Shown here: positions 33,801-38,166 of the stretch, one piece after another | Layout: each line of letters opens with the position of its first letter | Position numbering within the stretch: position 1 is the stretch's first letter | From: Candidatus Polarisedimenticolaceae bacterium | GTDB lineage: Bacteria > Acidobacteriota > Polarisedimenticolia > Polarisedimenticolales > DASRJG01 | Assembly: GCA_036275915.1 (NCBI GenBank) | Contig: DASUCV010000011.1 | Span: forward strand, 310,001 to 374,000 | Length of the DNA stretch: 64,000 nt | Direction of reading: 5' to 3' | Notes under the pieces: model-generated | Databases searched by the model: none | What the model was told of the DNA's origin: nothing | Seen by the model: only the letters and a program-made list of their open reading frames with translations | Position numbers and translations under genes: made by a program

Positions 33801-35482
33801 GTCGTCTCCTCGGTGGCGATTGTGGGGCCGTCCTCCTCGGCCGGCCCCACGCTCCGCGCGTCGACGATCTGCGCGCCGAAATCGCGGAGCAGGCGCCGGA
33901 CCTCCGGATCACGGCCCGCGCGCTCGATGAGCTGCTGGCGCGACTCGGACGGAACAGACGGGGCCGCCGTGCTCGGCTCCGGCGGCGCCGCGCCGTCTGC
34001 GGCCCCCGAGATTCGGAGGGTGAGGTTCCGGCCGAGCGTCTCCGTGGCGATCCGCTCGATGGCCCGGGTGTTCTCGTCGTTCGCCAGCATCCGGCGGAGA
34101 CCGTCGTCGCCGGCGCCGAACGCGATTCGCAGCGAGCCCCCGTCGACGACGACGGACGAGGCTTGGTCGAGCATCGCGCCGAGCATCGGCCGGGCGGCCG
34201 TCACCGCCGTGAGAAGCGCTCCGCGCAGATCGGCCTGAACGGGCGGGAACGAAGCCGCCGCCGGCTCATCAGTTTTTTTTTTTGGCGGCGGGGTCTGCGG
34301 CGCCGAAGGCAGCCGGGGCGGAACCTGCGTCGCCGGCTTGCCCGCCATCGGGGCTTTGCCCTCGAGCGACGCGAGGATCTCCTCGATCGGTCGTACCGAG
34401 CCGAGGCTCGCGATGCGGATCAGCGCGCCCTCGAAGAGGAATCGAGGCTGGCTCGAGCTCTTGAGCGGGTGCTCGAGCGCCGCGAGGATCTGGAAGATGC
34501 GCGTGAGGTCCTCGAGCGAAAGACCTTCCGCGGCGTCGCTCAGGATCGCGCTCTCTTCCGGCGCGCGCGCGAGGACGCCGCGGCCCTCGGGCCACGCCTG
34601 GACGAGCATGAGATCCCGCACCACGCCGATCAACTCGGCCCAGAAGTGAACGAAGTCGTGCCCCTCGTCGACGAGCGCGTCGAGCGCCTGGAGGAGCGCG
34701 CCCGGATCGTGACCGGCGAACCCACGGATGAACGTCGCGAGCAGATCCGTCCTGACCGAGCCCAGGACCTGCATGGCGTCGTCGTCACCCACCTCCGACC
34801 CGCAGAAGGCGAGCACCCGCTCGAGAACCGAAAGCGCATCGCGCATCGAGCCCTCACCGGCGCGCGCGACGCGGTCGAGGGTCCGGTCCGAGATCGTGAC
34901 GCCTTCCGCATCCGCGATGCGGCGAAGGTGCTGCGAGACGTCCCGTGTCGAGACACGATGGAACTCGAAGACTTGGCACCGGGAGAGGATCGTGGGTAGG
35001 AGCTTCTGCATCTCGGTGGTCGCGAGGACGAACACCACCTGCGGTGGAGGCTCTTCGAGGGTCTTGAGCAGCGCGTTGAACGCCGCCTTGCTGAGCATGT
35101 GCGCTTCGTCGATGATCAGCACGCGGTAGCGGTCGCGCACGGGGGCGTACGACACGACCTCCTGCAGCTCGCGAATGTTGTCGACGCCGGTCCGCGACGC
35201 CGCGTCGAGCTCCATGACATCGAGCGAGCGGCCTTCGGTGATCTCAGTGCAGGAGACGCAGCGGTTGCACGGTGTCGCGGTCGGTCCTTCGGCGCAGTTC
35301 AGGCTCTTCGCCAGGATGCGCGCGACCGTGGTCTTGCCGGTGCCTCGGACGCCGGCGAAGACGTACGCATGGGCAATGCGCCTCGCCGTGAGCGCGTTCC
35401 GCAGGGTCCGGGCGACGTGCGCCTGACCCACCAGGTCGTCGAGAGTCTGGGGCCGCCACTTGCGCGCGAGAACCTGATACAT
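33797..35482 (-). CDS. dnaX: DNA polymerase III subunit tau (and gamma by slippage)
   Basis: 561 residues in the full frame (tau). The clamp-loader ATPase (1-370) has MYQVLARKWRPQTLDDLVGQ, Walker A GVRGTGKTTVARI, a Cys4 zinc module (CAEGPTATPCNRCVSC), DEAHMLSKAAFNALLKTLEE and sensor SRCQVFEFHRV. A Pro-rich linker follows, then a tau-specific C-terminal part (about 420-561). At codons 400-404 an uninterrupted A11 run reads CCA AAA AAA AAA ACT; in the -1 frame it is followed immediately by AAC TGA TGA. Slippage would give a 404-residue gamma form, as in Thermus (transcriptional) or E. coli (ribosomal). Confidence 0.95.
   Translation of the reverse strand: MYQVLARKWRPQTLDDLVGQAHVARTLRNALTARRIAHAYVFAGVRGTGKTTVARILAKSLNCAEGPTATPCNRCVSCTEITEGRSLDVMELDAASRTGVDNIRELQEVVSYAPVRDRYRVLIIDEAHMLSKAAFNALLKTLEEPPPQVVFVLATTEMQKLLPTILSRCQVFEFHRVSTRDVSQHLRRIADAEGVTISDRTLDRVARAGEGSMRDALSVLERVLAFCGSEVGDDDAMQVLGSVRTDLLATFIRGFAGHDPGALLQALDALVDEGHDFVHFWAELIGVVRDLMLVQAWPEGRGVLARAPEESAILSDAAEGLSLEDLTRIFQILAALEHPLKSSSQPRFLFEGALIRIASLGSVRPIEEILASLEGKAPMAGKPATQVPPRLPSAPQTPPPKKKTDEPAAASFPPVQADLRGALLTAVTAARPMLGAMLDQASSVVVDGGSLRIAFGAGDDGLRRMLANDENTRAIERIATETLGRNLTLRISGAADGAAPPEPSTAAPSVPSESRQQLIERAGRDPEVRRLLRDFGAQIVDARSVGPAEEDGPTIATEETT
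34266..34283 (-). other. dnaX: Slippery A11 tract with tandem out-of-frame stops in dnaX
   Basis: Sense strand: eleven A (34283-34273), then C and TGATGA (34271-34266). Gain of one A in the transcript, or a -1 ribosomal shift, places the tandem TGA codons in frame after residue 404. The tract lies exactly where gamma ends in other species, at the end of the ATPase/collar part. Confidence 0.75.
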
Positions 35483-35499
35483 GACGACCTCGAACTGAT

Positions 35500-35602
35500 G
35501 GGGCCCAAGTTGTCCTGCGGCGCCTGCGCCGGTCCGCTTACCGTTGCTCCCTTCCGGGCCTGGCGGGGTTCGCGGTGACGCACCGCACAGGGCTCGGGCC
35601 CC
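35500..35602 (-). ncRNA. ffs: Signal recognition particle RNA, small bacterial type (4.5S)
   Basis: About 103 nt. The SRP domain IV core is unmistakable on the minus strand: GCCAGGCCCGGAAGGGAGCA with the GGAA tetraloop, followed by ACGGTAAGC. The 5' end GGGGCCC (35602-35596) pairs with the 3' end GGGCCCC (35506-35500), and CAGGGC/CACCGC-type helices stack between. The RNA binds Ffh and targets nascent membrane proteins. It lies 17 nt upstream of dnaX and downstream of two tRNA-Ser genes, a neighbourhood seen in many bacteria. Confidence 0.93.
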
Positions 35603-35634
35603 GCAACCTAGCTATCGCCGTGACACGCGCCGGG

Positions 35635-35724
35635 TGGCGGAGAGAGAGGGATTCGAACCCTCGGTACGGTTTCCCGTACACACGCTTTCCAAGCGTGCAC
35701 CTTCAGCCACTCGGTCATCTCTCC
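35635..35724 (-). tRNA. tRNA-Ser(GGA)
   Basis: 90 nt with encoded CCA (35637-35635). Acceptor GGAGAGA pairs with TCTCTCC; anticodon loop CTTGGAAAG gives GGA; long variable arm (TGTACGGGAAACCGTACC); T-loop GGTTCGAATCC. The discriminator is G. Confidence 0.96.
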
Positions 35725-36383
35725 ATGGCTCGGCGGCGAGCCTTACGTTCGATCGGGACCGGCCAACGCCGATCATGGACCGCCGACGATTCGGAACGAT
35801 GGCGGAGAGGGTGGGATTCGAACCCACGTGCCTGGTCACCCAGACAAAGCGCTTTCGAGGCGCCCCCGTTACGGCCACTTCGGTACCTCTCCGAAACGCT
35901 TTCACCTTCATCCGCTTGCGCACCGACACGTCGCTCGCGGAAGAACTCCAACAGGAGAGAGGACGCCTCTTCCGCGAGGACGCCCCCTTCCGACTCGACA
36001 CGATGATTGAACTCGGCTCCGAGCACACGCAACGTCTCGAGCCGGCCGACCGCCCCCACCTTGAAGTCCGTCGCTCCGTACACGAGCCTTCCGACCCGCG
36101 CGTGGATCGCCGTCCCGAGGCACATCAGGCACGGCTCGACCGTGCAGTAGAGCGTGGTCGCGACCAACCGGTAGTTGCCGAGGCGGTGCGCCGCATCGCG
36201 CATGGCGAGGACCTCGGCGTGAGCGGACGGGTCGTTGAGGGCGAGCGACGCGTTGTGACCCCGGCCGATGATCTCGCCGTCCGCCACGACGACCGCCCCG
36301 ACGGGGACCTCTCCGGCGACGCGCGCAAGCCAGGCCTCGTCCAAGGCCGCCCGCATGAACCGCTCGTGCTCGACCGCGTTCAT
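35715..36383 (-). CDS. tadA: tRNA-specific adenosine deaminase TadA (frame runs into tRNA genes)
   Basis: Start ATG 36383. The deaminase core is complete by about residue 152: H55 and E57 in HAEVLAM, the zinc pair C85/C88 in TVEPCLMC, and the C-terminal helix SSLLLEFFRERR. TadA converts A34 to inosine in tRNA-Arg(ACG). The open frame has no stop after this helix. It reads 11 more codons, then the whole tRNA-Ser(CGA), and ends at 35715 inside tRNA-Ser(GGA), giving 222 codons. Out-of-frame TGA codons lie just after residue 157, so a one-base shift, real or a sequencing error, would give a normal ending. Transcription follows tRNA-Arg(ACG) by 34 nt. Confidence 0.9.
   Translation of the reverse strand: MNAVEHERFMRAALDEAWLARVAGEVPVGAVVVADGEIIGRGHNASLALNDPSAHAEVLAMRDAAHRLGNYRLVATTLYCTVEPCLMCLGTAIHARVGRLVYGATDFKVGAVGRLETLRVLGAEFNHRVESEGGVLAEEASSLLLEFFRERRVGAQADEGESVSERYRSGRNGGASKALCLGDQARGFESHPLRHRSESSAVHDRRWPVPIERKARRRAMER
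35800..35892 (-). tRNA. tRNA-Ser(CGA)
   Basis: 93 nt with encoded CCA (35802-35800). Acceptor GGAGAGG / CCTCTCC; anticodon loop CCTCGAAAG gives CGA; long variable arm; T-loop GGTTCGAATCC. It overlaps the 3' part of the tadA reading frame on the same strand. Confidence 0.96.
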
Positions 36384-36417
36384 CCCGGTCTCCCCGACGA
36401 CACACTTCGCCGCGCCA

Positions 36418-36494
36418 TGGTCGGACCGGAGGGACTCGAACCCCCGACCTACTGGTTCGTAGCCAGTCGCTCTATCCAGCTGAGCTACGGTCCG
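36418..36494 (-). tRNA. tRNA-Arg(ACG)
   Basis: 77 nt with encoded CCA (36420-36418). Acceptor CGGACCG / CGGTCCG; D-arm TAGCTCAGCTGGATAGAGC; anticodon stem-loop ACTGG CTACGAA CCAGT gives ACG; T-loop GGTTCGAGTCC. It closely matches E. coli tRNA-Arg(ACG), the tRNA whose A34 is deaminated by TadA; tadA is the next gene downstream. Confidence 0.96.
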
Positions 36495-36550
36495 TGGGGA
36501 GCCAGGCTAAGCAAAAAGAGGTCGTCGACCCAACAAAAAAACGAGCGCGG

Positions 36551-36580
36551 ATCGTAGCACTCGGGTCTTTCCAAAGTCAA
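36551..36580 (-). promoter_or_regulatory. Promoter candidate for tRNA-Arg-tadA
   Basis: Minus-strand TTGACT (36580-36575), 18-nt spacer, TACGAT (36556-36551). The transcript would begin about 50 nt before the tRNA. It is back-to-back with the plus-strand promoter at 36603-36630. Confidence 0.45.
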
Positions 36581-36602
36581 CGCATCGCCTGCCCAGCCCA
36601 GG

Positions 36603-36630
36603 TTGCACCTCCAGCTTTCCTACCTATATT
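36603..36630 (+). promoter_or_regulatory. Promoter candidate for the second HTH-receiver gene
   Basis: TTGCAC (36603-36608), 16-nt spacer, TATATT (36625-36630). The leader to ATG 36692 is about 55 nt. Confidence 0.5.
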
Positions 36631-36691
36631 CGAGCCACGACAGGGCGGAAAAACAAGAAAGCTCCAAGGCTGCGCCAGTTTGGGGGTCGTC

Positions 36692-37315
36692 ATGACGGAT
36701 CAGACGGAAGGCAATCGCCGATTCTTCACGACGTCCGAGGTCGCGCGCTATTGCGCGGTGACCAACGACGGCGTGCTGAAGTGGATCAAGTCGGGAAAGC
36801 TCCGCGCGTTTTCGACCCCCGGCGGACACTACCGCGTCAGCGCAGAAGATTTTCGAGAATTCTTACAGAAATACGATATCCCGATCGACGAGGCGTTCTT
36901 CACGGGCTCGACGAAGGCGCGATCGGTTCTCGTCGTCGACGACGAGGCCGACATCCGGGAGATCGTGCGCCGCGTGCTCAAGGAGATGGAGCCGAACCTC
37001 CGCATCGAGGAGGCTTCCGACGGTTACGAAGCTGGAATCAAGATCGGCGCGATGCAGCCCGACCTCGTGATCATGGACGTGATGATGCCGCGGGTCGACG
37101 GTCTCTCGCTGTGCCGCTCGATTCGAGAGAACCCCGACACTCGCTCGATCAAGGTGCTCGCGATCACCGCCTTCCCCGAGCACGACGCCATTCGCAAGAT
37201 GTACGACGCCGGTGCCGACCTCTGCCTGATGAAGCCGATCCAGTTCGAGCACTTCCGCCTCGAGGTGCTCCGCCTCCTCAACGAGGCGTCGCGGGGTCAA
37301 GCCGCCAGCGCCTGA
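36692..37315 (+). CDS. HTH (excisionase/MerR-type)-receiver fusion regulator (paralogue)
   Basis: 207 residues from ATG 36692. The excisionase-type winged HTH (about 11-65) has FFTTSEVARYCAVTNDGVLK and the wing FSTPGGHYRVSAEDFREFL. The receiver domain (about 77-198) keeps D83/D84, phosphoacceptor D129 (in VIMDVMMPR), T159 and K181. Same architecture as the protein at 11707-12324; the HTH wings share the TPGGH(Y/R)R core. No kinase is adjacent. It stands directly before the exopolysaccharide locus, whose first promoter is 140 nt beyond its stop, so control of that locus is a reasonable guess. Confidence 0.88.
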   Translation: MTDQTEGNRRFFTTSEVARYCAVTNDGVLKWIKSGKLRAFSTPGGHYRVSAEDFREFLQKYDIPIDEAFFTGSTKARSVLVVDDEADIREIVRRVLKEMEPNLRIEEASDGYEAGIKIGAMQPDLVIMDVMMPRVDGLSLCRSIRENPDTRSIKVLAITAFPEHDAIRKMYDAGADLCLMKPIQFEHFRLEVLRLLNEASRGQAASA

Positions 37316-37455
37316 TCGGTCGCACCCAAAGATCGCTCGTCACGGCGGGCCGCCGACACCCCGCGCGGCGCCGCCCTTCCGTGTCGCGTCGGCGAAGTCG
37401 CTGAAATCGGCGCTCTCTTGACTTCATTCCTTTGCGATCTTGTTCGTTTCTCTTC

Positions 37456-37484
37456 TTGACACCGCAAAATACGCTGGGTATAAG
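37456..37484 (+). promoter_or_regulatory. Strong sigma70-type promoter of the polysaccharide export gene
   Basis: Perfect TTGACA (37456-37461), 17-nt spacer, TATAAG (37479-37484). Leader of about 80 nt to GTG 37570. It lies in the 254-nt gap after the HTH-receiver gene; the rest of that gap shows GC-rich sequence without a recognisable gene. Confidence 0.7.
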
Positions 37485-37569
37485 TTCAGCGGTCCGGCAC
37501 GGTTCATCACGACAGAAAAACGTTTCGCGACTCACTCGCTTCGCGCGCAGAACTCGATGAGGTTCAGAC

Positions 37570-38166
37570 GTGAAGAGTGCATTTCATTTTCGTACGCTCG
37601 TCCTGCCGGCGCTCGCCGGCGCCTGTCTCCTCCTCGGTCCTGCCCGAGCGGAAGAGGGTGGCGCCAACTCCAGCGAAGACTACGTCCTCGGCGTCGAGGA
37701 CCACCTTTCGATCTCGGTCTGGAATGAGCCCCAGCTCTCCAACGCCACCCGGGTGATCATCATCCGGCCCGACGGGAAGATCACCTTCCCGCTCGTCGGC
37801 GACATCCAGGCCGCCGGCCGCACCCCCAAACAGCTCACCGACGATCTGACGACGCAGCTCACCAAGAAGATCAAAGATCCCACCGTCACCGTGACGGTCG
37901 ACGAGATCAACAGCTTCAAAGTGGCGGTCGTCGGCGAAGTGACGACGCAGGGTGTCCTCACGCTACGACGCCGGACGCGCCTCCTCGAAGCGATCGCGCT
38001 CTCCGGTGGGCTGTCCCAGTACGCGGACAAGTCGAACGTCGTACTCGTGCGCTTCGACAACGGCAAAGAGAACCGGACGCGAGTCGACTACCGGAAGGTC
38101 CTCTCGGGCGAGCGGCCCGAGCTGAACATGTTTCTGAAGCCCGGAGACATCCTCATTGTCAATTGA
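37570..38166 (+). CDS. Polysaccharide export protein, Wza/XrtA-type (Poly_export + SLBB)
   Basis: 198 residues from GTG 37570 (GAGG upstream). A signal peptide (LVLPALAGACLLLGPARA) precedes a Poly_export domain (about 33-115: YVLGVEDHLSISVWNEPQLS, RPDGKITFPLVGDIQAAGRT). An SLBB domain follows (about 118-195: FKVAVVGEVTTQGVLTLRRR, ending LKPGDILIVN). The short length, without the C-terminal outer-membrane helix of E. coli Wza, fits the exosortase-associated export proteins. The outer-membrane pore could be completed by the barrel protein encoded next. First gene of the exopolysaccharide locus. Confidence 0.9.
   Translation: MKSAFHFRTLVLPALAGACLLLGPARAEEGGANSSEDYVLGVEDHLSISVWNEPQLSNATRVIIIRPDGKITFPLVGDIQAAGRTPKQLTDDLTTQLTKKIKDPTVTVTVDEINSFKVAVVGEVTTQGVLTLRRRTRLLEAIALSGGLSQYADKSNVVLVRFDNGKENRTRVDYRKVLSGERPELNMFLKPGDILIVN

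Follow-up and report, generated by a model that had tools for sequence, protein, structure and literature searches.

The locus lies on the minus strand of the window, by which we mean the whole 64,000-nt stretch of DNA that was analysed, and consists of a run of genes in the order tRNA-Arg(ACG), tadA, tRNA-Ser(CGA), tRNA-Ser(GGA), SRP RNA, dnaX, ybaB and recR, the last of which was identified from its translation alone. Its features are as follows:

36551-36580, minus strand: sigma-70-like promoter, TTGACT-18-TACGAT, with TG before the second hexamer (consensus scan)
36418-36494, minus strand: tRNA-Arg(ACG), called by ARAGORN and Rfam (67.4 bits), with the CCA encoded
36384-36417, minus strand: 34-nt spacer between tRNA-Arg(ACG) and tadA, with a Shine-Dalgarno-like GGGGAG and without a promoter-like or terminator-like site
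35715-36383, minus strand: tadA open reading frame of 222 codons, with its ATG at 36383 and the TadA domain conserved to about codon 157
35800-35892, minus strand: tRNA-Ser(CGA), called by ARAGORN and Rfam (51.8 bits), wholly within the tadA open frame
35635-35724, minus strand: tRNA-Ser(GGA), called by ARAGORN and Rfam
35508-35594, minus strand: small bacterial SRP RNA (4.5S type), Rfam RF00169, 57.2 bits
33797-35482, minus strand: dnaX (DNA polymerase III gamma/tau), TIGR02397, 424 bits
33501-33800, minus strand: ybaB/ebfC, TIGR00103, 70.4 bits

Because the gene upstream of tRNA-Arg(ACG) is divergent (36692-37315, plus strand; a helix-turn-helix fused to a response-regulator receiver domain), the minus-strand unit begins with tRNA-Arg(ACG). 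The helix-turn-helix of this divergent gene is excisionase-like when read from the translation, and the gene shares its intergenic region with the tRNA-Arg promoter.

An earlier note on this DNA had placed tRNA-Arg(ACG) 34 nt before tadA on the same strand, and the ARAGORN and Rfam calls, together with the tadA ATG at 36383, bear this out. The Shine-Dalgarno-like GGGGAG stands 6 nt 5' of that ATG. The tadA product scores above the NCBIfam equivalog cut-off for TadA (NF008113, 175.4 bits against 150), and both zinc-site motifs, HAE (in HAEVLAM) and PCxxC (in EPCLMC), are present in its translation. These features point to a tRNA adenosine(34) deaminase, which is predicted to deaminate A34 of tRNA-Arg(ACG). 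TadA is usually essential, and its substrates compete for it. The note had described tRNA-Arg(ACG) as the one tRNA whose A34 most bacterial TadA proteins deaminate, and ACG is indeed the sole A34 anticodon found among the 43 tRNA genes of the 4.5-Mb assembly (a set taken from Rfam positions). In seven genes from the window, 64% of the codons for arginine are CGU, CGC or CGA. As a separate observation on the tRNA genes of this genome, ARAGORN calls a tRNA-Sec(TCA) at L158:1703-1799, adjoining a tRNA-Ala(GGC) on the opposite strand.

A consensus scan of positions 35000-38000 returned one sigma-70-like site, located upstream of tRNA-Arg(ACG). We compared this with the eight genomes of the order that had enough upstream sequence, and in all eight we found one such site per scanned stretch, 47-59 nt 5' of tRNA-Arg. 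No second sigma-70-like site occurred in tRNA-Arg, the spacer, tadA or between the tRNA-Ser genes in any of the eight, nor up to 300 nt past tRNA-Ser(GGA). A promoter candidate only before the tRNA, as first proposed, is thus a feature of all the genomes compared, at the same position in each. We also considered a promoter belonging to the tRNA-Ser genes themselves, and rejected it on the same sigma-70-like scan of the eight genomes, where none was found. In the window, no terminator-like site was found on the minus strand between tRNA-Arg and dnaX. Across the loci of the order, tRNA-Arg is separated from the tadA start by 9-53 nt, and the minimum of 9 nt, in locus L186, leaves no room for a separate tadA promoter there; a tadA promoter of its own, which together with the lack of a joint transcript had been named as refuting the proposal, was not found in the sigma-70-like scan. 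The features of a tRNA-mRNA operon are therefore present, namely a single upstream promoter and a short spacer without an internal promoter or terminator. Because one conserved promoter precedes the tRNA and none lies between it and tadA, and because the spacers are short and free of terminators, co-transcription of tRNA-Arg(ACG) and tadA is well supported at the level of sequence.

The survey of tadA neighbourhoods that had been proposed as a check was carried out by searching with TadA through genomes at the level of family, order, class and phylum; the loci were then fetched and counted as linked when tRNA-Arg(ACG) lay at most 400 nt upstream of tadA on the same strand. The linkage is order-wide (8/8), is found in about half of the class (15/30, the 8 order loci included) and is patchy beyond, with 4 linked loci among the 76 from other classes of Acidobacteriota. 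Wherever tRNA genes stand just upstream of tadA in Acidobacteriota, ACG is the one present (19/19 loci), never another. On a tree of TadA the linkage state changes 15 times, versus 24.6 in shuffles, and by these counts the linkage is not due to chance. We found no published description of it in the open-access literature. On the other side of the gene, tRNA-Ser(CGA), tRNA-Ser(GGA) and the SRP RNA lie 3' of tadA throughout the order (the SRP RNA in 7/7 other order genomes scanned), and of the tRNAs on the two sides it is the downstream tRNA-Ser(CGA), not a substrate of TadA, that is retained more widely.

The gene order seen here is part of an older block: serS, two tRNA-Ser genes, tRNA-Arg(ACG), tRNA-Arg(CCT), tadA, tRNA-Ser(CGA), tRNA-Ser(GGA), SRP RNA and dnaX. 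This block is partly kept, with serS at its head, in three other groups, the Ignavibacteria, Peptococcaceae and Desulfuromonadales, where the loci are drawn from the best 80 matches of one scan and form a biased sample. Specifically, an ignavibacterium (L052) and a peptococcacean (L060) carry serS, tRNA-Ser(TGA), tRNA-Ser(GCT), tRNA-Arg(ACG), tRNA-Arg(CCT), tadA and tRNA-Ser(CGA) in this order, two Desulfuromonadales (L042 and L045) carry the serS block without CCT, and in L020 tRNA-Arg(CCT) alone precedes tadA; the identity of serS was confirmed in six loci. The linkage of tRNA-Arg(ACG) to tadA is probably an inherited piece of this block. Among the loci retrieved, L016 (NZ_MKZS01000001.1, 8076773-8085216), titled Moorena bouillonii, has 3671 bases identical to the acidobacterial genome G006 that adjoin DNA of much lower G+C, and likely comes from a chimeric or contaminated assembly.

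The downstream side of tadA holds a more unusual feature than the upstream linkage. No stop codon separates the gene from tRNA-Ser(CGA): the reading frame passes into the tRNA at codon 164, crosses the whole tRNA and the spacer behind it, and meets its first stop, TGA at 35717-35715, at nt 8-10 of tRNA-Ser(GGA). The open frame thus encloses an entire tRNA gene, able to fold and encoded on the same strand. In a family relative from another genus (G001), an identical tRNA is crossed in the same frame, and the stop follows 16 nt past the tRNA. A sequencing error behind the missing stop is ruled out by this second genus, with its identical tRNA and same frame, and a conserved protein extension is likewise ruled out, since the two genera differ in the translated sequence beyond tRNA-Ser. 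Overlaps also occur elsewhere. The tadA stop lies at nt 22-24 of the tRNA in two genera of another family (f2), at nt 46-48 of tRNA-Ser(CGA) in seven genomes assigned to Pelotomaculum, Peptococcaceae or Bacillota (loci L039, L044, L047, L048, L064, L067 and L070), and four further single loci have overlaps of other forms. Altogether, tadA terminates within or past the tRNA in 15 of the 98 loci with a nearby tRNA-Ser, and another 15 leave a gap of 0-9 nt. On the TadA tree, which was built from a short protein and gives a rough count of changes, the overlap state changes 8 times against a mean of 14.2 and a minimum of 11 in shuffles, which suggests that the overlap arose several times and was kept within groups.

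We consider it reasonably probable, taking all parts together, that the unit in the window is a reduced form of the ancient serS/tRNA/tadA/SRP-RNA/dnaX block, transcribed jointly, with a tadA message bounded by tRNAs and, in the window's family, a cut that leaves this message without a stop. The gene order, its conservation, the promoter position and the lack of a stop are direct observations, from which we infer the joint transcript, its processing and the effect on TadA output. One unit, driven by the single promoter, would comprise tRNA-Arg(ACG), tadA, tRNA-Ser(CGA), tRNA-Ser(GGA) and the SRP RNA, and probably also dnaX-ybaB-recR. Once the tRNAs were cut out of this transcript, the tadA message would have a tRNA boundary on both sides. 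RNase P cleaves on the 5' side of a tRNA and in this way generates the start of mature tRNA-Arg; the earlier suggestion that it defines where the tadA mRNA begins is wrong. For the tadA message, processing at the 3' end of tRNA-Arg would create the 5' end, and RNase P, cutting before tRNA-Ser(CGA), the 3' end. As this cut would fall inside the tadA frame, after 163 codons and 2 nt, the processed message would be non-stop, while still covering the catalytic domain in full, since this extends to about codon 157. With maturation of tRNA-Ser(CGA), a ribosome on the non-stop message would be rescued and its product tagged; ribosome rescue usually tags a protein for destruction. If the ribosome came first, the tRNA would be unfolded before it was cut, and complete TadA would be made, extended by about 59 residues. 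Each transcript would then give either tRNA-Ser(CGA) or complete TadA.

The genes for trans-translation are present in the order, with smpB in 10/10 genomes and a full tmRNA in 9/10; the window's assembly has smpB and is without an intact tmRNA gene. In the same assembly we observed a tmRNA-like copy of 106 nt (G000:C22:451993-452098, equivalent to L168:1494-1599 on the minus strand; 39.3 bits, below the cut-off), in which both ends are kept and most of the middle is gone, the tmRNA of the nearest relative being 354 nt long. This copy may be the remnant of an integration site or of a gene that was deleted, the intact tmRNA having perhaps fallen into an assembly gap.

There is, by our estimate, slightly less than an even chance that the old block was simply passed on by descent, is co-transcribed and carries no regulatory meaning, and that the missing stop is drift, tolerated because few ribosomes reach the tRNA or those that do are rescued. 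The serS-headed block in distant phyla is consistent with such descent. Little selection is required to keep a frame open across the tRNA, because the genome is rich in G+C, the stretch is short (46-68 stop-free codons past the conserved TadA domain) and two of the three frames of the window's tRNA-Ser(CGA) are free of stops; an overlap of this length is easily reached by chance at such a G+C. Some families moreover have the overlap while their sister families lack it, and it is dispensable for function, since the related family f3 keeps its stop 3-29 nt before the tRNA. What drift accounts for less readily is that identical stop positions are kept, at nt 46-48 in seven genomes and at nt 22-24 in the two f2 genera, although conservation of the tRNA sequence itself may explain both.

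The note had also supposed that co-transcription would tie the levels of enzyme and substrate together. Of this, co-transcription is supported by the promoter in 8/8 genomes and the short spacers, while coupling is a possible reason for the linkage, which is probably a surviving piece of an older block where tadA has further tRNAs on its flanks. We think it unlikely that tRNA-Arg(ACG) stays beside tadA because a shared promoter holds the ratio of TadA to its substrate fixed. Such selection would fit the conserved promoter and the order-wide linkage, as well as the fact that ACG is the sole upstream tRNA kept in Acidobacteriota (19/19), with CCT and the others gone from there. It would also fit work in E. 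coli, where the level of tRNA-Arg2 limits the action of TadA on mRNAs and thereby controls their editing, and where the stoichiometry of TadA and tRNA-Arg2 matters (PMC13170351). This competition offers a reason why the enzyme-substrate ratio, and hence coupling, could matter; that work differs from our case in that it is reported to concern expression and editing, not gene linkage (PMC13170351). Against selected coupling, the linkage is dispensable, since half of the class lacks it, as do 72 of the 76 loci from other classes of Acidobacteriota; elsewhere the non-substrate tRNA-Arg(CCT) stands between ACG and tadA, or alone before tadA (L020); and shared descent of the old block gives the same pattern, with 15 changes on the tree and 24.6 in shuffles. 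The retention of ACG only in Acidobacteriota is compatible with selection for coupling and is no proof of it, because the loci share ancestry. Finally, we regard it as very unlikely that tadA or tRNA-Ser(CGA) is transcribed separately from a promoter of a non-consensus type, such that processing and translation never share an RNA: the scan was limited to sigma-70-like sites and a tRNA-Ser promoter of another type within tadA is conceivable, but the spacer, with 34 nt in the window and 9 nt in L186, already holds the tadA ribosome-binding site, the eight genomes have no conserved second site, and no terminator-like site follows tRNA-Arg.

The joint unit with its tRNA-bounded message admits a stronger claim, namely that complete TadA and mature tRNA-Ser(CGA) are mutually exclusive for each transcript, both in the window's family and independently in the relatives of Pelotomaculum, so that TadA output is set against its substrate. 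We consider this quite unlikely to hold in full.

The closest known arrangement is that of selC, the gene for tRNA-Sec, which is nested in or overlaps selB in Alphaproteobacteria, Gammaproteobacteria and Nitrospirae, and which was described as the first case of an entire tRNA lying within a reading frame of bacteria (Mukai, 2021, PMC8124441). Processing was proposed to yield a non-stop mRNA, with protein and tRNA as alternatives, which is a hypothesis there too (PMC8124441). The tadA case resembles it in that a tRNA gene lies wholly or partly in the 3' end of the upstream frame, in the proposed outcome of a non-stop mRNA with protein and tRNA as alternatives, and, for Pelotomaculum, in the position of the stop, which in Dyella selB also lies at tRNA nt 46-48 (PMC8124441). 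It differs in that the protein is TadA and the nested tRNA-Ser(CGA) is not its substrate, the substrate tRNA lying upstream of the gene without being overlapped, and in that the overlaps are found in Acidobacteriota and Bacillota, unlike those of selB/selC. The downstream overlap is a feature of a rare and recently described kind. The order tadA, SRP RNA, dnaX, ybaB, recR is known from B. subtilis and its relatives; the two arrangements share the run from tadA to dnaX-ybaB with the SRP RNA between, whereas here two tRNA-Ser genes stand between tadA and the SRP RNA, and tRNA-Arg(ACG) leads. In mitochondria, polycistronic transcripts are punctuated by tRNAs, and a message may be without a stop of its own. 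The likeness lies in the tRNAs at the message ends and in a stop that can be absent; here, however, the system is bacterial, and we saw no sign of a stop codon being completed by polyadenylation.

Overall, the locus is a conserved arrangement in which one promoter apparently drives both TadA and tRNA-Arg(ACG), and it bears on the question of how the level of TadA is set relative to this tRNA. In addition, tadA is a second, unrelated gene among the very few bacterial reading frames known to enclose an entire tRNA gene, and the overlaps in Pelotomaculum make tRNA excision in competition with translation testable in culturable organisms. If the exclusion of complete TadA by mature tRNA-Ser(CGA) were true, every transcript would yield the substrate tRNA-Arg(ACG), and the enzyme would be made only when the ribosome outruns RNase P.
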